DNA of 49,021 nt from Candidatus Omnitrophota bacterium (GCA_013285735.1 JABDGZ010000011.1:63-49083); one strand, 5' to 3'. Shown: positions 35,934 through 48,963, counted from the stretch's first letter. Notes: generated by a model not told the origin, from the sequence alone. Numbers and translations are program-made.

Positions 35934-38900
35934 ATGACACCAATTACGTTTTTAGAGAATGAAAATAAGCAAAAAGTTAATGAGTCAACACCTGTTCCTG
36001 CTGCTGCTGATAATAGTAGTGAAGGACTTAAAAAAGACCAATTAAGGAAAATGCTTCATATAGCCAAAGCAGTGCGGCAGGGCAATCTGTCCGTACGTTT
36101 TCCTGTAGAAGAAGACGGTATACCCAGCGAAATAGGTGAGGTTCTTAATGATATTTTAGATTTGAATGAAAACATGATCAATGAATTTGCCCGTGTCAGT
36201 GCTATTGTTGGTGAAGAGGGTAAATTAACTGAACGCGCCTCCATCGGACCTGTCAAGGGAGCCTGGGCCACAGGCATGGATTCCATCAATTCCCTAATAT
36301 CTAATCTGGTCCAACCTACCAATGAATTCGCTCGCGTTATTACATCGGTCGCTAAAGGTGATTTGTCACAAAAAATGCCGTTGGAAATTGAGGGCCGGGT
36401 TTTAAAAGGGGAATATTTACGTATCGGAACGGTTGTTAACGCGATGCTGGATCAGTTGAGCTTTTTTTCATCGGAAGTTTCGCGTGTGGCTAAGGAAGTA
36501 GGTTTGGAAGGAAAATTAGGCGGTCAGGCAGACGTTAAAGGGGTATTGGGTGTTTGGAAAGATTTAACGGATAACGTTAACGTTTTGGCCGGAAACTTAA
36601 CGAATCAGGTGCGTAACATTGCCAAGGTTACCACCGCTGTAGCTAAAGGCGACTTGTCACAAAAGATCACCGTCGATGCTAAAGGTGAAATTTCTGAGCT
36701 TAAAAATACGATCAACATCATGGTGGACCAACTCAACTCGTTCGCGGCGGAAGTTACCCGTGTGGCCAAGGAAGTAGGTACGGAAGGAAAACTTGGAGGT
36801 CAGGCCGACGTCAAGGGTGTTTCTGGTACCTGGAAGGATTTAACGGATAACGTTAACGTTCTGGCCGGAAACTTAACGAATCAGGTGCGTAACATCGCCA
36901 AGGTTACGACCGCTGTCGCTAAAGGCGACTTGTCACAAAAGATCACCGTCGATGCTAAGGGTGAAATCCTGGAGTTGAAAAACACGATCAACATCATGGT
37001 GGATCAACTCAACTCGTTTGCGGCGGAAGTTACCCGTGTGGCTAAGGAAGTAGGTACGGAAGGAAAACTTGGAGGTCAGGCTGACGTTAAGGGTGTTTCG
37101 GGTACATGGAAGGATTTAACGGATAACGTTAACGTTCTGGCCGGAAACTTAACGAACCAGGTGCGTAATATTGCGAAGGTTACGACCGCTGTAGCTAAAG
37201 GCGACTTGTCACAAAAAATCATGGTCGACGCTAAAGGAGAAATTTCAGAGCTTAAAAACACGATCAACATCATGGTGGACCAACTCAACTCTTTCGCGGC
37301 GGAAGTTACGCGTGTGGCCAAGGAAGTAGGTACAGAAGGTAAACTCGGTGGTCAGGCAGACGTCAAGGGTGTCTCTGGTACATGGAAAGATTTGACGGAT
37401 AACGTAAATCAGCTCGCTGGTAACTTAACGAATCAGGTGCGTAATATTGCCAAGGTTACGACGGCTGTAGCTAAAGGCGACTTGTCGCAAAAAATTACCG
37501 TCGATGCCAAGGGAGAAATCCTGGAGTTGAAAAACACGATCAACATCATGGTGGACCAGCTGAACTCTTTTGCGGCAGAAGTTACGCGTGTGGCCAAGGA
37601 AGTAGGTACGGAAGGAAAACTTGGTGGTCAGGCAGAGGTTAAGGGTGTTTCGGGTACATGGAAGGATTTGACGGATAACGTTAACTTCATGGCCGGAAAC
37701 TTAACGAACCAGGTGCGCAATATTGCGAAGGTTACGACCGCTGTCGCTAAAGGCGACTTGTCACAAAAGATCACCGTCGATGCTAAGGGTGAAATCCTGG
37801 AGTTGAAAAACATGATCAACACCATGGTGGACCAGCTCAACTCGTTTGCAGCGGAAGTTACCCGTGTGGCTAAGGAAGTAGGTACCGGCGGTAAACTTGG
37901 AGGGCAGGCCTTCGTTAAAGGTGTTTCAGGGGTTTGGAAAGATTTAACAGATAACGTCAACGTTTTGGCCGGTAACTTAACAGATCAAGTGCGTAACATT
38001 GCGAAGGTTACGACCGCTGTAGCTAAAGGCGACTTGTCACAAAAGATCACCGTCGATGCTAAGGGTGAAATCCTGGAGTTGAAAAATACGATTAATATCA
38101 TGGTGGACCAACTCAACTCGTTTGCGGCTGAAGTTACCCGTGTGGCTAAGGAAGTAGGTACGGAAGGAAAACTTGGAGGTCAGGCTGACGTTAAGGGTGT
38201 TTCTGGTACATGGAAGGACTTAACGGATAACGTCAACGTTTTGGCCGGAAACTTAACGAACCAAGTGCGTAACATTGCGAAGGTTACGACCGCTGTAGCT
38301 AAAGGCGACTTGTCACAAAAGATCACCGTCGATGCTAAGGGTGAAATCCTGGAGTTGAAAAATACGATCAACATCATGTTGGATCAGCTTAACTCCTTCG
38401 CGGCGGAAGTTACCCGTGTGGCCAAGGAAGTAGGTACAGAAGGGAAACTGGGTGGTCAGGCAGAGGTTAAGGGAGTTTCTGGTACCTGGAGAGACTTAAC
38501 CGAAAACGTCAACTTCATGGCTGGTAACTTAACGAACCAGGTGCGTAATATTGCCAAGGTTACAACAGCGGTCGCGAAAGGTGACTTGTCACAAAAGATC
38601 ACCGTCGACGCCAAGGGAGAAATTCTGGAGTTGAAAAACATGATCAACACCATGGTGGACCAACTCAACTCCTTTGCAGCTGAAGTTACCCGTGTAGCCA
38701 AGGAAGTAGGTACAGAAGGAAAGCTTGGTGGTCAGGCCGACGTTAAGGGTGTTTCGGGTACCTGGAAGGACTTGACGGATAACGTTAACTTCATGGCCGG
38801 TAACTTGACCAAACAAGTACGCGGTATTGTCAAGGTCGTTACTGCCGTTGCTAATGGGGACTTGAACCAAAAATTTGTTTTGGAAGCTAAAGGTGAAGTG

Positions 38901-41354
38901 GCGGCACTTGCAGAAACTATCAATAATATGATTGATACGCTCAGTACCTTTGCTGACCAAGTAACCACGGTCGCCCGTGAAGTAGGTATCGAAGGGCAGC
39001 TTGGTGGTCAGGCAAAGGTACCTGGAGCATCTGGTGTATGGAAGGACTTGACGGATAACGTTAACTTCATGGCCGGTAACTTGACCAAACAAGTGCGCGG
39101 TATTATCAAGGTCGTGACCGCGGTTGCTAACGGGGACTTGCGGGAAAAGTTCGTTCTGGAAGCCAAAGGTGAGGTTGCAGGTTTGGCGGAAACAATTAAT
39201 AGTATGACCGACACCTTGAGAACTTTTGCCGACCAGGTAACAACCGTGGCTCGTGAGGTAGGTATCGAAGGAAAGCTTGGTGGTCAAGCCAAGGTTCCGG
39301 GTGCATCCGGTATCTGGAAAGACTTGACAGGTAACGTCAATCAGTTGGCAGGTAATTTAACTTCTCAGGTTCGTGCAATTGCAGAGGTTTCAACCGCTGT
39401 TACCAAGGGTGACTTGACCCGGTCTATTACCGTCGAGGCCCAAGGGGAAGTCGCGGCGCTAAAAGACAATATTAACCAGATGATTACAAACTTAAAAGAC
39501 ACGACCGCCCAAAACAAAGACCAGGACTGGTTAAAAACGAATTTGGCTAGGTTCTCCAGCATGATGCAAGGACAGCGTAATTTGACCGCGGTGGCGCAGC
39601 TGATCATGTCGGAACTGACACCTATTGTTGACGCTCAACATGGGGCTTTTTTCGTCGCACATCCGGTAGATAATGATACTGAATTGACCCTTATTGCAAG
39701 TTACGCATTTAATGAACGCAAAAATCTTTCCAGCACCTACCGCCTGAAAGAATCCTTAGTCGGTCAATGCGCGTTTGAAAAGAAACGTATTTTAATTACC
39801 AAGCCGCCACAAGATTATATCTCTATTACATCGGGCCTCGGAGAAGCAACACCGCAAAATATTCTTCTTCTGCCGGTTGTTTTCGAAGGTGGATTGAAAG
39901 CTGTTATTGAGCTTGCAAGCTTCCAGCCATTTAGCGTTAACTACTTAAACTTCCTGGATCAGCTCATGGACAGCGTCGGTGTTATCTTAAATATGATCTC
40001 ATCCACCATGCGTACCGAGGAGCTTTTGCAAGAAGTTAAACGTTCCAACTCGGAATTGGAAAATCAAGCCAAGGAACTCGAAGACAAGGCCAAGCTGCTC
40101 GAGCTTAAGAACAAAGAAGTTGAGATGGCGAGTTTGTCATTGGAGGAAAAAGCCGAACAGTTGTCATTGATTTCGAAATATAAATCAGAATTTTTGGCCA
40201 ACATGTCCCATGAGCTTCGTACTCCGTTAAACAGTTTGCTTATTCTTTCCAAAGCTTTATCTGAAAATAAAGACAGCAATTTGACCCCGGACCAAATTAA
40301 ATATGCTTCAACCGTACATTCGACAGGCCAGGATCTTTTGACCTTGATTAACGAGATCCTTGATTTGTCCAAGGTCGAAGCCGGTAAAATGTCCATCGAG
40401 CCGCAGGAAATCCTCTTACCTCAGATTTCCGAATACCTGGAACATAATTTCCGGCCGCTGGCAGAGCATAAGAACCTGACGTTTACTATCGACGCCAGCA
40501 GTGATCTTCCCAAAACAGTGTTTACAGATAACAACCGCTTGCAGCAAATCCTTAAGAACTTGTTATCCAATGCCATTAAATTTACCGAAAAAGGTGAAGT
40601 CAACATGGAAATCAGGTTGGTTGAAAAGGATAAGAAGTTTGGGATAGAGACCCTGGATAAAAGTCCTTCTGTCCTGGCTTTTGCCGTGAGGGATACGGGT
40701 ATTGGTATTCCCGTCGAGAAACAAAACATTATTTTTGAGGCATTCCAACAAGCTGATGGGACAACCAGCCGTAAATATGGGGGTACCGGCTTGGGGCTCA
40801 CCATCAGCCGCGAAATAGCCCGGTTGCTCGGAGGTATTATTAAGGTTGAAAGCGCCCCTGGCATGGGTAGTATTTTCACTCTTTATTTGCCAGGAAAATA
40901 TATTGGCGCAGAAACAGTAAGTAAGAGCGGCAGTAACAGAAAAGAAACAGCATATCCGATATTGCCCAAGAATGCTGATTTTAAAGGCAAGAAGATCCTT
41001 ATTGTCGATGATGATATGCGGAACATCTACGCATTGACGAGTGTGCTTGAGCCTTGGGGCATGATTGTCACCCATGCGGACAACGGCAAATCAGGTATCC
41101 GGCGTTTACAAGAGAAGCCGGATACGGATTTAATATTGATGGATATCATGATGCCGGAGATGAACGGATTTGATGCCATTAAAATGATCCGTAAAATACC
41201 AAACTTTGAATCGTTACCTATTATTGCTTTAACAGCTAAAGCAATGAAAGGAGATCGCGAGCAATGTTTGGATGCAGGGGCGTCTGATTATATTACTAAA
41301 CCCGTGGACACTGACCGTCTTCTCGCGGTAATGCACTCATGGCTGAACAAATAA
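35934..41354 (+). CDS. Giant poly-HAMP / GAF hybrid histidine kinase
   Basis: This 1806-residue soluble hybrid kinase shows no membrane helix. Residues 40-1200 are about 13 HAMP units of 92 residues, each probably a canonical plus a divergent HAMP pair (core [45 protein letters not shown]). They are followed by a GAF domain (about 1210-1365), a coiled coil (about 1370-1415), HisKA with His1426 in MSHELRTPL, a HATPase ([24 protein letters not shown]) and a C-terminal receiver (about 1686-1802) with Asp1737 in LMDIMMP. The plan is that of fungal Nik1/Os-1 osmosensor kinases, with more HAMP units. HAMP arrays relay conformational signals; the GAF ligand is unknown. The gene has its own control element and overlaps the next gene by 16 bp. 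Confidence 0.93.
36561..39596 (+). repeat. Eleven tandem 276-bp repeats encoding HAMP units
   Basis: Unit starts fall at exact 276-bp steps from 36561 to 39321 (anchor GATTTAACGG or GACTTGACGG). Units 1-8 are nearly identical in protein and differ mostly at third codon positions. Units 9-11 are more diverged. Two earlier, more diverged HAMP units lie at about 36040-36560 and are not counted here. Variant residues (VLAG, QLAG, FMAG; KNTINIM versus KNMINTM) show that units 5 and 8 share a type, suggesting a block duplication of three units. Confidence 0.93.
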
Positions 41355-42916
41355 CAGAAACTAAAACATGGGTTGAAACCCAGCCATTAACGCGGGCCAA
41401 TGTTTTAGTGGTGGATGACAGGCCGGATGGATTGCTTGCCTTGGAGGCTGTGCTTTCCTGTGATCAATACGATCTTTTTAAAGCCAGCAGCGGCCAGGAA
41501 GCTTTGCGGGCCGCTTTATTTAATGATTTTGCAGTCATCCTCCTCGATGTGCAAATGCCGGAAATGGATGGTTTTGAAACCGCCAAATTATTGCGGGAAA
41601 CCAACCGTTCACAATACACTCCTATTATTTTTGTGACGGCCATCAATAAAGAGATCCGTCACATCAACCAGGGATATGAAAGCGGGGCAGTGGATTATGT
41701 TTTTAAACCTTTTGATCCATTTATCCTTAAATCAAAAGTAAAAGTATTTGTCGAACTCTTTGAAAAAAATATGCAGATCAAACGGCAGGCCGCTTTATTA
41801 AGGCATATAGAAGCAGAAGAACAAGAACGGAAAATCCTTGAGTTAAAGCAGGAAAGTTACCGTAGTTATAAATATTTATCCGATGCTGTTCCTCATGCCA
41901 TTGTGAAGGTGAAGCCTTCGGGACAAGTGGAGTATTTTAACCAGCAGTGGTTGGAATATACGGGGTTTAAATCAGAAATAGATTGGAAAGCAATAGTTCA
42001 CCCCCAGGACAGAAGAAAGTTCCTGGCTTTTTGGTTACGGATGTGCCAGAAAAATAAACAGACCCACGAGATAGAAATGCGCCTGCGTTCTGCCCAGGAT
42101 GGTATCTACCGATGGCATTTGGTGAGGGCTGTCCCGGAAATAAAGAATGGTGAGAATATTTGCTGGATCGCCAGTTGCACCGATATAGATAATATTAAAA
42201 GAACGGAAGAGTCGTTTAAAGTGTTGTCTCAAGAACTCAATCGATCAAATAAAGAATTGGAAGAGTATGCGTATGTGGCGTCACATGACCTAAAAGAACC
42301 TTTGCATGTGGTATCTTCTTTTGTTTACCTTCTGGAGAAACGTTTCCAGCCTAAATTAGATGAGCATGACCGGCAATATTTAAAATTTATTAAAGAGGGT
42401 GTGGGCCAAGCGCAAAGATTGATCAAAGATTTATTGGAATATAGCTGTATTGGCAGAGAGAAGTTGTATGAAGTGGTAGATACCGCGTCGGTGGTAACGG
42501 AAGTATTGGCCAATTTGAAAACTATTATTGAAAATGAAAAAGCCACCATCACGTGTGGCTCAATGCCAAGAATAATAGCCAATTATTTTGAGATTGTTCA
42601 GCTTTTTCAGAATTTAATTATTAATGCCGTTAAATACAAGAGTCGAAAACCATTGGAAATACAAATCAATGCCAGATTTGAAAATGATAAGTGGATTTTT
42701 TCAATCAAAGATAATGGTATAGGTATTGATTCCCAATATAAGGATCGTATTTTTGATATGTTTCAAAGACTTCACGGAAAAAATGAATATTCCGGCACCG
42801 GCATAGGACTAGCTATATGCAAGAAGATTGTTGAGAGTCATGGTGGAAGAATATGGTTCGAGTCCGTGTTAGGTGAAGGGTCGGTGTTTTATTTTACATT
42901 CAAACATGGGGCATGA
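41339..42916 (+). CDS. Receiver-PAS-histidine kinase, cytosolic
   Basis: This 525-residue soluble protein has a receiver (about 18-140: [13 protein letters not shown], acceptor Asp in [30 protein letters not shown]) and a coiled coil. A PAS/PAC domain follows (about 175-295: [17 protein letters not shown]), then phytochrome-type HisKA with His316 in [10 protein letters not shown] and a HATPase ([34 protein letters not shown]). Its receiver-first layout parallels the kinase at 26555. It starts inside the end of the poly-HAMP kinase gene (16-bp overlap), so the giant kinase's phosphate may be passed to this receiver. Confidence 0.92.
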
Positions 42917-42930
42917 AGAAAGGTGGGAGT

Positions 42931-43602
42931 ATGAGCCAATCAACCAAAATAAATGTAGAAAAACATTTAGATTTATCTGTCATTGATTTAGATAAGGTTT
43001 ATGAAGCGACTCTGAAAACGTTGCCGTATGATTATATCATCGTTTCAGATTTTATTAGACAGGAGTGGAAAGACAGGCTGCTGCGTTCTTATCCTAAAAT
43101 TAAATCGGCTGGAAGTTTTCCATTATCGAGTGTATCTTGCGACAGCGAGTTTATGCAATTGATCAATGAAATGAACAGTGCTGCTTTCCGGCATGCTATT
43201 GAAGAAAAATTTTCTCTTGATCTCGAAGGGAAACCCACCATGTTCACTGTTCGTGGTAAATGCCGGCTTAAAGATGGCCAAGTCCATACCGATTCAGAAA
43301 GCAAGATCATTACTGTGCTTTTATATATGAATCCATCTTGGGGCGATCAAGATGGAGGGCGGCTTAGAGTTTTGAACAGCCCTAATATTGATGATTTTGC
43401 GTCTGAAATTTTTCCCAAAATAGGGGAATTATTAATTTTTAGACGTTGTGACCATTCCTATCATGGGCATCTGCCTTTTGAAGGTGCACGTCAAGTCATT
43501 CAAATGAATTGGGTGACCCATCAGAAATTTGTTGATCATGAGCAAAAACGTCACCGGTTGTCGGCATTCTTTAAAAGATTTAACCTTGGGGATAAAAATT
43601 AA
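42931..43602 (+). CDS. 2-oxoglutarate/Fe(II)-dependent oxygenase
   Basis: This 223-residue protein has the double-stranded beta-helix signature of 2OG-Fe(II) oxygenases, prolyl-4-hydroxylase-like group. The iron ligands are His119-x-Asp121 (QVHTDSESKIITVLLYMN) and a distal His (His178 in SYHGHLPFEG), and Arg187 in GARQVIQMNW would bind the 2-oxoglutarate carboxylate. GGRLRVLN and GELLIFRRCDHS complete the fold. Substrates of this group range from protein side chains to sugars or nucleotides; none can be chosen here. ATG 42931 follows AGGTGG at 4 bp; an in-frame ATG at 42913 overlaps the kinase stop. It begins a three-gene insert between signalling genes. Confidence 0.85.
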   Translation: MSQSTKINVEKHLDLSVIDLDKVYEATLKTLPYDYIIVSDFIRQEWKDRLLRSYPKIKSAGSFPLSSVSCDSEFMQLINEMNSAAFRHAIEEKFSLDLEGKPTMFTVRGKCRLKDGQVHTDSESKIITVLLYMNPSWGDQDGGRLRVLNSPNIDDFASEIFPKIGELLIFRRCDHSYHGHLPFEGARQVIQMNWVTHQKFVDHEQKRHRLSAFFKRFNLGDKN

Positions 43603-43604
43603 AA

Positions 43605-44600
43605 ATGATGGGGAATAATGCGTCTGTTTGGGTTGTCACGGAAGGTTTGAAGGGACTGCAAAACCAAGCTATAGGTTTGGCCCAAGCTCTGGGATTTCCT
43701 TATGTTTATAAGGAGATTATGAAACCCAAAAGTATTTGGCGGGTACTGCCAGCTTCTTATTGGCCTGACCCGTTATTATTGCTGGTAGATGATCAGAAAT
43801 TTACCCCGCCGTGGCCAGATTTATTAATTTCATGCGGTCGGTGTAGTACCGCCACTTCTTTGGCCATAAAGAAGGCAAGTGCTGGAAAAACATTTACTGT
43901 TCATATCCAGCATCCTCAAGTTGATCCTGGAAAATTTGACATTGTTATTGCACCACTGCATGACCGCTTGAGCGGCAGTAATGTTTTGGTTACTCAGGGG
44001 GCAATTCATCATGTCACGAATGAAAAACTCGTTAGTGCAGCCAGTCATTTTCGTCCGTTGCTGTCTTCATTGCCCCGTCCTTTGATTGGTGTATTAATGG
44101 GTGGAAACAATAAATATCAGGAATTTACTGCTGTTGCTGCACAGGATTTTGCTGATAAATTATCAGCGGCTGCGTGGAGTACCCATGGCGGGCTTGCCAT
44201 CACCCCGTCGCGCCGGACGAATTCGAAAAATAAGGAAATATTAAGGCAAGGTCTTAAAGGAGTACCTGCCTACATTTGGGACGGCCAGACAGAAAATCCT
44301 TATTTAGGTCTGCTTGCTTTAGCGGATGTGATCGTGGTTACGAGCGATTCTATTTCAATGATTTCTGAGGCTTGCTTTACGGGAAAACCGATTTATGTTT
44401 ATGAATTACCAGGCGGCGGCAGAAGGCATAAAAAATTTCTGGATGATCTGATGAAAAAGGGCATCGTGCGTCCTTTTTTAGGCAAGATTGAGGCATGGAA
44501 GTATCCGCCGCGGGATGAGACCAGGCGTGCGGCTGATTTCGTGCGGGAGCGTTTTTTAGAAAGAAAGTCAATGGATCAAAAATTGTGTTGTACTCCCTAG
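43605..44600 (+). CDS. ELM1-family (DUF1022) protein, GT-B-like
   Basis: This 331-residue protein matches the mitochondrial-fission ELM1 / COG3660 family. It has the N-terminal VWVVTEGLKGLQNQAIGLAQAL, PDLLISCGRCSTATSLAIKK, VHIQHPQVDPGKFDIVIAPLHD, GVLMGGNNKY, and a C-terminal VIVVTSDSISMISEACFTGKPIYVYE. The two-lobed layout resembles GT-B glycosyltransferases, and bacterial members are often placed near envelope polysaccharide genes, but no activity is established. It starts 2 bp after the oxygenase stop. In this context a sugar- or lipid-modifying role under phosphorelay control is possible. Confidence 0.82.
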   Translation: MMGNNASVWVVTEGLKGLQNQAIGLAQALGFPYVYKEIMKPKSIWRVLPASYWPDPLLLLVDDQKFTPPWPDLLISCGRCSTATSLAIKKASAGKTFTVHIQHPQVDPGKFDIVIAPLHDRLSGSNVLVTQGAIHHVTNEKLVSAASHFRPLLSSLPRPLIGVLMGGNNKYQEFTAVAAQDFADKLSAAAWSTHGGLAITPSRRTNSKNKEILRQGLKGVPAYIWDGQTENPYLGLLALADVIVVTSDSISMISEACFTGKPIYVYELPGGGRRHKKFLDDLMKKGIVRPFLGKIEAWKYPPRDETRRAADFVRERFLERKSMDQKLCCTP

Positions 44601-44610
44601 GAGGCAAAAA

Positions 44611-46539
44611 ATGCAAACGCAAATAAGTCAGGAAAAGCCTCTTAAAATCAAGACATTTAGTACAACCGGTGCATCGGCACTTTTTAAGGCTCTGGGGCAT
44701 CCATTAACCGTCCCTAAAATGCATACACTGATCCATAGGCTATCTTCATTTCAATCCGTAGCCATTTACGATCCATTAGGTCAGGCAGGAGAGGTTGAAG
44801 TATTGTATGATTTTTCACAGGTGAACATTGTCGACATTTTTGTGCAGAATGTCGTCAATGTCGGTGAACAATTATTCGGTCTGGAGGCAAAGCCAATCAC
44901 TGCCATTCAACAGATGAATATTGATGCTATTTTTGTCACTACCTTTGATGCCGCGCGTATGATCGCCCAGGTCCGTCATTTCTTGCCTGCCCATGTAAAG
45001 ATATTCTCACTTGATGATGTGCGACTACCGGATGAGTATCTGACCAATACGCGTAATTATCTCGACAGTTTGAATTTTGCGACAAATTTTGTTTTTTTTC
45101 GGGAAGAAAAAGGCCAGCATACGCGCTTGGTCACAGCTAATTATTGGGCTGGGTATCATGCAAAGAATGTCGGCCTATGGTGTTGTTTGTTTGATAAGAA
45201 CGGTAATATGCTGGCTCAATGGAAAGAGCTGCTTGAAAACAGCGTTCATACCATAACTCTTGATAGCCGTCAGATAAAGCAGCGTTTTGGACTTGGAGAT
45301 TTTACGGGCAGTCTTTTTTTGCATTTCACAGGAGCTATGGGGCATGACGTTGTTAAGTATGCCTTGGATACTTATGGTGATGATAATTCAGTTCTTTCCT
45401 GCACTCATGATGCGAACTCCTGGCCTGCTGATCTTTATGCAGGTCTGCCTGCTCCCCGGAGTGGAGAAAAAGTTCTTTTATGGGTACAAAACAGCCATCC
45501 ATGTTCCATCCCTGCCAATAGTATCGGATTAAATGTAATGGGTTCAGGGGAGATTAGTACGTTTGATAAGCCAATAGCTCCTTTTGCCACTTGTGCGATA
45601 GACGTTGCGGATCTTTTACCAGAGGCCCAATGGCCGCAACAATTGGAAGTCCATGCGGGAAAATATTTTGTTCGTCCCCGTTATGAAGTTTTGTCTGAAA
45701 ATAAACGTAGCCTGATCGCGCACACCAATGTCGAGCGTATTGATCTTAAGCAAGATCCTGGTATTCCTACAATTGGTGCTTTGATGGGAAAGGGTTATAT
45801 TCTGCCAGCACCCATCTTACCGCCTGCGCGTTGGAAGAACATTGTCTTGCCAACCCCCATGTCGACATGCCAGGACAATCTTCCCTTGGCGCTCATTATT
45901 TACAACAGTCAAGGTCAACAGATCATGCGTCATTTTCTTGGTAAATTTGACAGGGGCAATATTAAAGCCATTGATATTAATGATTTATTAGGGAAGAATT
46001 CGTTTACAACATTTGGCCACCTGGAGTTAGTTTATGATTTCTCACAAGGCGGCGGTGCTGATGGCTGGCTGCATTCATTGTTCCGTTATGAGGATACTAT
46101 CAGCGGGCATGCTGCTGAAACAAGTTTTGGAGCGCATATTTTTAATACGGTTTTGGTTTATAAGAATGAACCACAATCTTACGCGGGCCGTCCTCCGGGG
46201 TTAAGCACACGGCTTTTTTTACGTCTGAGTGACGATGAAAATGTCGATGCCATGTGCCATTTAATTTACCCATCTTCGGCCACCTGGCATGCGCAATCGA
46301 CAACTGACTTGATTTTATGTAATGCCAATGGAGCAGAAATATTTAAAAAAACGGTGCACATTGCTTGCAGCGGTTCTTTGTTATGGAGTTATCATGACAT
46401 CTTTGATAAAAATCAACGCCTTAGTGCTGGTCGTGATGCCTATATGGTGATACGTGACGCGACCTGCAGATTGTTTGGTTATCACGGTCTAATCAGAGGA
46501 AATCAAGCTTTTAGCTTTGATCACATGTTTGGTTTTTAA
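44611..46539 (+). CDS. Unrecognised 642-residue modular beta-rich protein
   Basis: I do not recognise this protein. It has no signal peptide or membrane helix. Residues 60-200 look like an alpha/beta (Rossmann-like) region (IDAIFVTTFDAARMIAQVRHFLP and KIFSLDDVRLPDEYL). From about residue 185 there seem to be three copies of a beta-rich module. Each starts like LFDKNGNMLAQW, IIYNSQGQQIMRHF or LILCNANGAEIFKK, and each ends in a Ser-x(2-3)-His turn: SCTHDANSW, SFGAHIFN and SFDHMFGF. The phrase LxYDFSQ occurs in both the N-terminal and the second module. AGGAGG at 44599-44604 supports the start. It follows the ELM1-family gene by 10 bp, so it probably acts with it. Confidence 0.6.
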   Translation: MQTQISQEKPLKIKTFSTTGASALFKALGHPLTVPKMHTLIHRLSSFQSVAIYDPLGQAGEVEVLYDFSQVNIVDIFVQNVVNVGEQLFGLEAKPITAIQQMNIDAIFVTTFDAARMIAQVRHFLPAHVKIFSLDDVRLPDEYLTNTRNYLDSLNFATNFVFFREEKGQHTRLVTANYWAGYHAKNVGLWCCLFDKNGNMLAQWKELLENSVHTITLDSRQIKQRFGLGDFTGSLFLHFTGAMGHDVVKYALDTYGDDNSVLSCTHDANSWPADLYAGLPAPRSGEKVLLWVQNSHPCSIPANSIGLNVMGSGEISTFDKPIAPFATCAIDVADLLPEAQWPQQLEVHAGKYFVRPRYEVLSENKRSLIAHTNVERIDLKQDPGIPTIGALMGKGYILPAPILPPARWKNIVLPTPMSTCQDNLPLALIIYNSQGQQIMRHFLGKFDRGNIKAIDINDLLGKNSFTTFGHLELVYDFSQGGGADGWLHSLFRYEDTISGHAAETSFGAHIFNTVLVYKNEPQSYAGRPPGLSTRLFLRLSDDENVDAMCHLIYPSSATWHAQSTTDLILCNANGAEIFKKTVHIACSGSLLWSYHDIFDKNQRLSAGRDAYMVIRDATCRLFGYHGLIRGNQAFSFDHMFGF

Positions 46540-46548
46540 GGCAAGCCT

Positions 46549-46968
46549 ATGAACATTTTAGTGGTAGAAGACAATAAACCTGAACAGGTAATCATGAAAG
46601 AGGCTTTTAAAGAAGCAAGGGTTAATCATGATTTATATATGGTCAGGGATGGGGTGGAAGTTTTTGAATTTCTTAGCGGTCAAGGGGCTTTTCATGATGC
46701 TCCCAAGCCGGACCTTATCATTCTTGATTTGAACATGCCTAGAAAAAATGGTTTGGAAGTTTTAGCGGATATTAAAAATAATCCCATATTGGAACATATA
46801 CCCATTTTAGTTTTTTCTAATTCAGAGTTCTCTAGGGATATTTGCAAGTGTTATACCTTGGGCGCAAATGCGTATCTTACCAAGCCTGTTGATTTTCAGG
46901 GGTTTATAGACCTCGCTCATGTGATTGATGTATTTTGGTTTAAAATGGTCAGGTATTGTTCACATTAA
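46549..46968 (+). CDS. Rcp1-type response regulator
   Basis: This 139-residue stand-alone receiver of the Rcp1 group has VVEDNKPEQVIMKEAFKEA, VRDGVEVFEFLSGQGAF, acceptor Asp in IILDLNMPRKNGLEVL, FSNSEFSRDICKCY, LTKPVDFQGF and a terminal FWFKMVRY. Ser takes the place of the first Thr of the usual LTTS. It resumes the signalling run after the three-gene insert, 9 bp downstream. The phytochrome-type kinase at 41339 is the nearest likely donor. Confidence 0.88.
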   Translation: MNILVVEDNKPEQVIMKEAFKEARVNHDLYMVRDGVEVFEFLSGQGAFHDAPKPDLIILDLNMPRKNGLEVLADIKNNPILEHIPILVFSNSEFSRDICKCYTLGANAYLTKPVDFQGFIDLAHVIDVFWFKMVRYCSH

Positions 46969-46985
46969 GCAACGAGGATTGTCCT

Positions 46986-47444
46986 ATGACGAAAAAAAAG
47001 ATCATTGTTGTCGATGATGAACCTTTAATCCCGGTTTTGATGAAAGAGATTATTGAAGAAGACCAGGAGTTGGAAATGGCGCAGATTGCCACTGGAAAGA
47101 ATGAGTTTTTCAATTTAGTGAGCCACCATTATTTTGATGCCGCTTTAATTGATATTTCATTGGGAGGACGTGAAGGAGGGATTGAATTATTACAAATGGT
47201 GAAAGATAAAGCCATTAATCTGCCTGTGATTATGCTATCTGCGCATGACGAACTTCAATATGCCCTTAAAGCTTTGAAGGCAGGGGCCCGAGGGTACATT
47301 AATAAAAGATATATTTGCACGGATGTCATACCGTGCTTAAAGAAAGTGCTTGGCGGGGATTTATTTGTATCTGGAGATAAAGGAGAGCAGATTTTAAAAC
47401 AATACAAAGAATTAAATGCTTCTGTAGGAGCAGAGTCCCGTTAA
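46986..47444 (+). CDS. NarL-type receiver lacking its DNA-binding domain
   Basis: This 152-residue receiver has VVDDEPLIPVLMKEII, acceptor Asp in ALIDISLGGREGGIELL, LSAHDELQYALKALKAGARGYINK, and a linker LKKVLGGDLFVSGDKGEQILK. These are typical of NarL/FixJ regulators, in which a LuxR-type helix-turn-helix would follow. Here the protein ends after that linker (YKELNASVGAESR) and the next gene starts 10 bp later. No helix-turn-helix remnant is visible in the gap, so the loss looks old. ATG 46986 is chosen (GAGG 8 bp upstream) over a TTG at 46956 inside the previous gene. Confidence 0.83.
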   Translation: MTKKKIIVVDDEPLIPVLMKEIIEEDQELEMAQIATGKNEFFNLVSHHYFDAALIDISLGGREGGIELLQMVKDKAINLPVIMLSAHDELQYALKALKAGARGYINKRYICTDVIPCLKKVLGGDLFVSGDKGEQILKQYKELNASVGAESR

Positions 47445-47454
47445 GAGGTGGGTC

Positions 47455-48201
47455 ATGAATGCACATAAGAAAATTCTTGTCGTTGATGATGAGCCAGGAT
47501 ACAGGGCTCTTATCAATAAGGAACTAAGGACAGCCGGCTATCAAACTGTTTTGGCTCAGAGTGGAGAGGAGGCATTGGTCGCCTTATGGGAGAAAAAACA
47601 TATTGATTTAGTGCTTCTTGACGTTCGTTTGGCTGTTGTTCATGGTTTGAATATTTTTGAAATTATCCGTAAGAAATTCCCAGATCAAAGAATCATTGTC
47701 ACCAGTGTACTTCAAAAACATGAACAGCGATTTCTTATTTACGATGCGGATGATTATTATGATAAGTCTGAGAATTTGTCAGTATTGATGGAAAAGATTG
47801 ATAATGCCTTGAACAATGGTGCCGTGAAATGGAATTCAAGAGAGCATGATAAAAGAAGTTTTAGAAGAATGCCGGTCAATGTTCTCGCCAGTTGTGAACG
47901 TAATAATGTTTACGCGTCTCCTGCGGGCGCGCACTTTCTTTCTTACACCAAAGATCTTTCTATGTGGGGGGGAAGATTTATTATTGGTGAAAATGTCAAA
48001 GTGGGTCAGCATCTGACCATAGCTTTGGAATTGCCTGTTAATTTTTTGCCTTTATTGATTGATTGCGAAGTGGTATGGGTTAAAAAATTGGAAGAATTCA
48101 CCTCGAAAACCAAAGGACGGATTGAAGCTGGTGTCAGGTTTGTTAAATTAGATTCACCGAGTGATCAGAAAAAATTGAAAAATTATTTAAATTGTGTTTA
48201 A
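47455..48201 (+). CDS. Receiver-PilZ response regulator
   Basis: This 248-residue protein combines a receiver (1-120: VVDDEPGYRALI, acceptor Asp in VLLDVRLAVVHGLNI, TSVLQKHEQ, degenerate YDKSEN in place of Lys-Pro) with a C-terminal PilZ domain (about 130-248). The cyclic-di-GMP motifs are present: RxxxR at Arg134-Arg138 (KRSFRRMPV), and DxSxxG at Asp167, Ser169 and Gly172 (DLSMWGG). It should link phosphorelay input to c-di-GMP level, affecting motility, adhesion or polysaccharide. No cyclase or phosphodiesterase for c-di-GMP with an intact active site is seen in the window. GAGGTGG lies just before the ATG. Confidence 0.88.
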   Translation: MNAHKKILVVDDEPGYRALINKELRTAGYQTVLAQSGEEALVALWEKKHIDLVLLDVRLAVVHGLNIFEIIRKKFPDQRIIVTSVLQKHEQRFLIYDADDYYDKSENLSVLMEKIDNALNNGAVKWNSREHDKRSFRRMPVNVLASCERNNVYASPAGAHFLSYTKDLSMWGGRFIIGENVKVGQHLTIALELPVNFLPLLIDCEVVWVKKLEEFTSKTKGRIEAGVRFVKLDSPSDQKKLKNYLNCV

Positions 48202-48219
48202 AGTCCACCTGGGTATACT
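48192..48219 (+). promoter_or_regulatory. Possible promoter placing the transcript start at ATG 48226
   Basis: TTGTGT (48192-48197) and TATACT (48214-48219) are 16 bp apart. A start 7 bp after the -10 box would be the A of the ATG itself, giving a leaderless message. No ribosome site precedes this ATG, which fits. Confidence 0.35.
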
Positions 48220-48225
48220 TAATTC

Positions 48226-48963
48226 ATGGCCTATCAAATCTTAGTGGTGGATGACGATGCTGACTTTCGTGAAGAACTGCGAGATTCTCTGGAAGAGTAT
48301 ACCGTCATAGAAGCATCCAATGGGATTGACGCGCTGTCCATTTTAAAAAAGCCCAATGCCATTGACTTAGTGATTCTTGATGCTGTCATGCCCCATTTAT
48401 CAGGAACAGAGGTGTTGCGGGAAATTAAGAAAATCAGGCCTTCTCTTGCCATCATCATGTTGACCGGCCAGAGCAACAAGGACATTGCGATTGATGCCCT
48501 TAAAGGCCGTGCCGATGATTACATTGAAAAACCTGTCAATATCGGTAGATTTTTGGAAATAATCCAATCTACTCTTGCCGCAAAAGCCTTGAAAGGTTTC
48601 GCGTATACTCGTGGTATTCATGCCAAAATTGAGCAAGCCAAGCAGTTTATCGAACGCAATTTCGACAAAAAAATAACGTTGGAAGATATGGCAGGGCAAG
48701 CTTGTTTAAGCCCGAAATATTTTAGTCGGATTTTTAAAGAGATTACGGGCACAGGTTTTAATGAATATCGGCTTTCTATTAAAATCGCCCAGGCATGTGA
48801 GCTTTTGAAGAATTCAGATTATACGGTCACAGAAATCGCAAGTCATTTTGGGTATAAGAACTTAGAGTCATTTATTCGCATGTTTGAGAAGATTATGAAA
48901 TCCAGCCCCATGCAATACCGCCGTAAACATCAAAAAAAGAACCTGAAAAAACACTCTCCGTAA
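48226..48963 (+). CDS. Receiver-AraC-type response regulator
   Basis: This 245-residue protein has a receiver (1-118: VVDDDADFREEL, acceptor Asp in VILDAVMPHLSGTEVL, LTGQSNKDIAIDAL, IEKPVNIGRF) and a C-terminal AraC-type double helix-turn-helix (about 140-240: ITLEDMAGQACLSPKYFSRIFKE, then VTEIASHFGYKNLESFIRMF). It is one of only two DNA-binding regulators in the window and so a candidate output of the whole island. It lacks an obvious ribosome site and may be translated from a leaderless message. Copy 5 of the repeated element begins 13 bp after its stop. Confidence 0.93.
   Translation: MAYQILVVDDDADFREELRDSLEEYTVIEASNGIDALSILKKPNAIDLVILDAVMPHLSGTEVLREIKKIRPSLAIIMLTGQSNKDIAIDALKGRADDYIEKPVNIGRFLEIIQSTLAAKALKGFAYTRGIHAKIEQAKQFIERNFDKKITLEDMAGQACLSPKYFSRIFKEITGTGFNEYRLSIKIAQACELLKNSDYTVTEIASHFGYKNLESFIRMFEKIMKSSPMQYRRKHQKKNLKKHSP

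Follow-up and report, generated by a model that had tools for sequence, protein, structure and literature searches.

A compact three-gene cassette on the forward strand of a 49,021-nucleotide stretch from a Candidatus Omnitrophota bacterium (GCA_013285735.1 JABDGZ010000011.1:63-49083; the whole stretch is called the window hereafter) is a real and conserved unit. It comprises genes for a 2-oxoglutarate (2OG)-Fe(II) oxygenase (OXY), a candidate glycosyltransferase of the ELM1 family (ELM1) and an orphan protein designated P3. ELM1 and P3 are the core of this unit, and OXY, which about half of the P3 loci lack, is a frequent accessory. We hypothesize that the cassette may be a horizontally acquired, relocatable module acting on the inner core of lipopolysaccharide (LPS), a mechanism to which, taken as a whole, we give an even chance.

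A previous sequence-only reading of this DNA had described three non-signalling genes, separated by gaps of 2 bp (OXY to ELM1) and 10 bp (ELM1 to P3), with phosphorelay genes on both sides. Open reading frames (ORFs) and Pfam matches agree with this description, and also with the naming of the first two genes as a 2OG-Fe(II) oxygenase (PF13640) and an ELM1-family member (PF06258). The three genes had moreover been read as one linked unit, and synteny speaks in favor of this view, as the genes are not scattered in relatives: OXY-ELM1-P3 recurs in identical order and strand in 4 of 6 genus mates (G001, G003, G004, G006) at 56-74% identity, and a profile scan of genome contigs recovered P3, with identities of 46-58%, for the most part in alphaproteobacterial metagenome-assembled genomes (MAGs), beside ELM1 and/or OXY. 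Recurrence of the set in four genus mates and across the Alphaproteobacteria means that it is not a product of chance.

Among 385 sampled alphaproteobacterial genomes, P3 is found in 85 and ELM1 in 314; ELM1 is present in 84 of the 85 P3-bearing genomes (hypergeometric P = 7e-8, uncorrected for relatedness). Synteny counts in this class cover 68 P3 loci with upstream sequence. ELM1 lies no more than 3.5 kb upstream of P3 on the same strand in 56 of them, and is found in two more (L108, L052), overlapping at the ORF level. OXY is present in 36/68, and the order ELM1-OXY-P3 holds in every locus with both partners (32/32). The usual setting, with names assigned from the sequences, is carA-carB-greA-[lrp-type regulator, opposite strand]-ELM1-(OXY)-P3-trxB-lysR. 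Four P3 loci titled Anaerolineae, Rhizobium, Asaia and Gammaproteobacteria (L048, L050, L051, L056) closely resemble the other alphaproteobacterial loci, and these titles are probably mis-assigned MAG labels. In L119 (5508-7100; tested against Pfam), ELM1 and P3 are separated by a PAP2 phosphatase gene, which is consistent with a lipid setting; by eye, L121 is similar.

ELM1 proteins are named after plant mitochondrial fission. The cassette member matches PF06258 (Mito_fiss_Elm1) with an E-value of 2e-98 and a score of 329.7 bits, the family cut-off being 27. A function for bacterial ELM1 proteins became known only recently, with Acinetobacter baumannii A1S_2903, now KdoT, an ELM1-like transferase that uses cytidine monophosphate (CMP)-activated 3-deoxy-D-manno-octulosonic acid (Kdo) to add a third Kdo; its SRRT motif is required for activity, and models place this motif near the carboxylate of CMP-Kdo (PMC12856342, PMC10936431). 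This KdoT work provided the only relevant matches in our literature search on ELM1 (PMC12856342, PMC10936431). The window ELM1 carries SRRT at residues 202-205, and among 66 cassette copies the motif reads SRRT in 62 and SRRS in one.

In the Omnitrophota family of the window genome, a second ELM1 gene encodes a fusion protein in the copies inspected, with a lipid A acyltransferase domain (PF03279, Lip_A_acyltrans) N-terminal to ELM1; SRRT is present in all 14 Omnitrophota fusion copies examined. In G006 the gene order is waaA-lpxK-[acyltransferase::ELM1]-glycosyltransferases, and in 6/6 mates waaA and the fused gene share a contig at a distance of about 3 kb. No description of such a fusion was found in the searched literature. 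Among independent indications that ELM1 domains act on Kdo-lipid A, this fusion is the strongest.

The presence of KdoT's SRRT in the cassette ELM1, together with the acyltransferase::ELM1 fusion encoded close to lpxK and waaA, suggests a role in LPS. The surface-modification role that the sequence-only reading had offered, as part of a biosynthetic or surface-modification unit, is thus best fitted by a surface glycan of this kind. In the mechanism we propose, ELM1 would use a CMP-activated acidic sugar, either Kdo itself or one closely related, to glycosylate Kdo-lipid A on the cytoplasmic side of the inner membrane. OXY, where present, would then hydroxylate the transferred sugar, by analogy with the conversion of Kdo to Ko by KdoO, a 2OG/Fe-dependent Kdo 3-hydroxylase of the inner core (PMC8533242). 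P3 would be an obligate cytosolic partner built of several beta-sandwiches, most likely binding or processing a glycolipid or sugar intermediate. The substrates, the order of reactions and the role of P3 are those that we infer.

Several observations weigh against an LPS inner-core role. The cassette does not lie in an LPS-core locus: it adjoins signalling genes in the window, a Kir-type channel gene in the mates and greA/trxB in Alphaproteobacteria, where its neighbors are housekeeping genes and not LPS genes. OXY is missing from about half of the alphaproteobacterial P3 loci and has no match at E <= 1 to PF11004, which we take to be the Pfam family of Kdo hydroxylases (besides PF13640 and PF13661, there is one unrelated weak hit). 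P3 is without assigned chemistry. Neither waaA nor the fused gene was found in the window genome, a 1.84-Mb assembly of 69 contigs that is 71% complete; the absence of waaA counts here as well. In addition, the donor specificity of the cassette ELM1 may differ from that of KdoT.

These points leave room for another envelope glycoconjugate (capsule, exopolysaccharide, glycolipid or protein glycan), where ELM1 would use a donor other than Kdo, OXY would oxidize the sugar or aglycone, and P3 would be a carbohydrate-binding or processing enzyme. The diversity of the ELM1 family, with one characterized activity, and the alphaproteobacterial neighborhood devoid of LPS genes speak in its favor, as does a distinct gene arrangement in the genus: three mates carry OXY paralogues next to genes for a RidA-domain protein (about 390 amino acids) and a second 2OG-Fe(II) oxygenase, and in G002 this cluster directly follows, on the 3' side, an ELM1 gene lacking P3, which suggests other chemistry. 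One alphaproteobacterial locus (L124) combines ELM1, both oxygenases and P3. However, the SRRT motif, required in KdoT, is nearly invariant, and the acyltransferase::ELM1 fusion, with lpxK and waaA close by, argues for lipid A-Kdo, so that we regard a different glycoconjugate as rather unlikely.

OXY itself matches PF13640 (2OG-FeII_Oxy_3, E 9e-10) and PF13661 (E 8e-7). The iron triad H125, D127 and H184 (HxD...H) and the 2OG-binding arginine R193 are intact (numbering from 42913), and the 2OG-Fe(II) motif is present in 42/42 homologues. The nearest solved chains are hydroxylases with a prolyl-4-hydroxylase (P4H) domain, followed by Egl nine. As its closest solved relatives by sequence are thus of the prolyl-hydroxylase type, the cassette might instead modify a protein, for example by adding hydroxyl and sugar groups to a regulator or surface protein; P3, whose size and several domains would suit a scaffold or a substrate, would serve as one or the other. 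We consider this quite unlikely, because P3 is invariant at many polar residues of catalytic type, which is unusual for a mere substrate, and because so many P3 loci do without OXY.

The third protein had been called unrecognized, and this holds: P3 has no sequence relatives in Pfam, NCBIfam or PDB. An AlphaFold2 model computed with 5 close homologues was unusable (predicted local distance difference test, pLDDT, 51) and was replaced by a run with 73 homologues, which reached pLDDT 93.8 and a predicted template modeling score (pTM) of 0.92. The model displays a Rossmann-like domain at about residues 1-145, followed by a chain of about four beta-sandwiches (B1 to B4), the number of domains being taken from the secondary-structure string. 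Foldseek searches against PDB and viral models gave no global match, only diffuse multi-sandwich matches with template modeling (TM) scores <= 0.13 to the query, and searches with the N-terminal domain alone yielded no credible relative. In profile comparisons made to detect internal repeats only B3 and B4 are alike, and weakly so (38.8% probability); an apparent B1-B2 match was rejected as a product of overlapping windows. About five invariant columns lie in the Rossmann-like part and the rest, rich in His, Asp, Asn, Arg and Glu and including H245, D267, R357, H470 and H638, in the sandwich part, and since most are found there, the active or binding surface is probably formed by the sandwiches. 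P3 has no strongly hydrophobic stretch of transmembrane type and is therefore probably cytosolic.

As an extension of the LPS inner-core proposal, P3 might found a novel class of enzymes or assembly factors for the envelope. Together with ELM1 it would build an inner core whose ulosonic acid is hydroxylated or modified in some other way; about one fifth of Alphaproteobacteria would make this core, and the module for it would have been exported once, ready-made, to Omnitrophota. This we put forward tentatively, and with less than even confidence.

The distribution of P3 may suggest how the cassette reached its present host. Within Omnitrophota, P3 is confined to the genus of the window genome (3 of 384 genomes in the phylum sample, 5 of 92 relatives) and was not found in the remaining family and phylum among the Omnitrophota genomes sampled. 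The five Omnitrophota P3 sequences form one clade with full support, nested in the alphaproteobacterial tree (midpoint-rooted). This single nested clade and the narrow distribution indicate that there was probably one horizontal transfer from Alphaproteobacteria to an ancestor within this genus; the direction rests mainly on the distribution, because the root of the P3 tree is the midpoint. No P3 was found on plasmids.

Within the genus, the cassette occupies two different sites. Neighboring genes group the window genome (G000) with G001 and G004; in the P3 tree it falls outside all four mates, and the grouping G000+G001+G004 is rejected (approximately unbiased (AU) test, p 0.011), while the OXY tree does not reject it (p 0.48). 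Relocation and re-acquisition of the window cassette are both possible. In the mates, the cassette lies upstream of a Kir-type channel gene (PF17655), followed by a membrane protein; a CrcB-like gene occurs further 3' in three of them (L006, L007, L008), and galT-like genes are found 5' in two (L006, L009). This gene for a Kir-type inward rectifier potassium channel is conserved 3' of the mates' cassette (L007:4572-5501 and orthologues; L177:9289-10194). In the window genome, galT and Kir are adjacent on another contig, with no cassette between them.

The surrounding signalling island had been proposed to have the cassette as its physiological target, and this part of the sequence-only reading is contradicted by the relatives. 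The orthologous kinase-kinase-regulator operon is contiguous and free of the cassette in G004 (L181), G001 (L182) and G003 (L183), with identities to the window operon of 69-79% for the second kinase and 62-83% for the regulator; in L181 the genes for kinase and regulator share 4 bp (ATGA), and L182 and L183 are similar in this respect. In the window, 3632 bp separate the kinase stop at 42916 from the regulator start at 46549. Two cassette sites within the genus and cassette-free operons imply that the island does not need the cassette, and its placement inside the signalling operon is a lineage-specific feature of the window genome only. One could still argue that the cassette serves the phosphorelay around it as physiological output: it is inserted near-seamlessly, with 14 bp to the kinase and 9 bp to the regulator, which leaves little room for a promoter of its own and makes co-transcription likely here. 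As a general statement this is contradicted by the operons that are intact without the cassette in three mates carrying it elsewhere, and we hold it to be very unlikely; co-transcription with the phosphorelay in the window genome is plausible as a peculiarity of the lineage.

No direct or inverted repeats were found in 42400-47500, which spans the cassette ends and their surroundings, and no recombinase gene lies at the ends, the surrounding ORFs being signalling genes throughout. Scans for promoters and terminators returned promoter-like sites at no more than chance level. The two empty sites show a compact multi-gene unit placed in a foreign operon without visible traces of mobile elements. 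The OXY start at 42931 was preferred over an in-frame ATG upstream at 42913, since it is preceded by the Shine-Dalgarno-like AGAAAGGTGGGAG and the resulting N-terminus fits the lengths in relatives. Among the flanking genes, the large hybrid kinase shares about 96% identity with its G001 and G004 orthologues along the entire protein, far above its neighbors (69-84%). Coordinates are collected in Table 1.

Table 1. Features of the cassette, its flanks and related loci. Positions refer to the window unless a locus (L) is given; G denotes genomes.
Feature	Position	Strand	Remarks
OXY, 2OG-Fe(II) oxygenase, prolyl-4-hydroxylase-like superfamily	42931..43602	+	223 aa; PF13640/PF13661
ELM1, GT-B-type glycosyltransferase candidate, ELM1/KdoT family	43605..44600	+	331 aa; PF06258 over whole domain
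P3, orphan protein, Rossmann-like N-domain and ~4 beta-sandwiches	44611..46539	+	642 aa
Cassette extent relative to the empty site of relatives	42917..46548	+	kinase stop to regulator ATG
Hybrid histidine kinase	35934-41354		upstream flank; 1806 aa; 11 HAMP stretches, GAF, HisKA, HATPase, REC (Pfam)
REC-PAS-HisKA-HATPase kinase	41339..42916	+	flank outside unit; Pfam; orthologues in L181-L183
Response regulator	46549..46968	+	flank outside unit; PF00072; directly 3' of kinase in L181-L183
Four response regulators	46549-48963		downstream of cassette; one with PilZ, one with AraC-HTH
RidA and two-oxygenase clusters	L038:7304-10858; L039:7225-9790; L040:7005-9748		L038 in G002
Acyltransferase::ELM1 fusion	L174:9639-11606; L016:349-2301		L174 in G006, L016 in G022; further copies L017-L029

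ELM1 is found in most of the sampled Alphaproteobacteria. These data tie a branch of ELM1 to a well-conserved, confidently folded family of about 640 amino acids and to an accessory oxygenase, and they reveal the natural acyltransferase::ELM1 fusion near lpxK and waaA; the roles of ELM1 and P3 are thereby directly testable.

Compared with known systems, P3 resembles complement/alpha-2-macroglobulin-type proteins, the top Foldseek matches, in its chain of beta-sandwich domains; however, with a TM-score of about 0.1 and a large root mean square deviation they are no homologues. OXY may share with KdoO a 2OG-Fe(II) chemistry on an inner-core ulosonic acid, but belongs to PF13640/PF13661 and not to the family PF11004. 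The acyltransferase::ELM1 fusion contains an ELM1 domain with SRRT like that of the cassette, but is only ~25-34% identical to it and resides in an LPS locus (waaA, lpxK) without P3 or OXY. KdoT is alike at the level of family and motif, in being of ELM1 type with SRRT; it differs in its setting, a core-oligosaccharide locus with GnaT, whose description mentions neither an oxygenase gene nor one resembling P3. An ELM1 family with one LPS enzyme, KdoT, was already known, and what is new is P3 itself.

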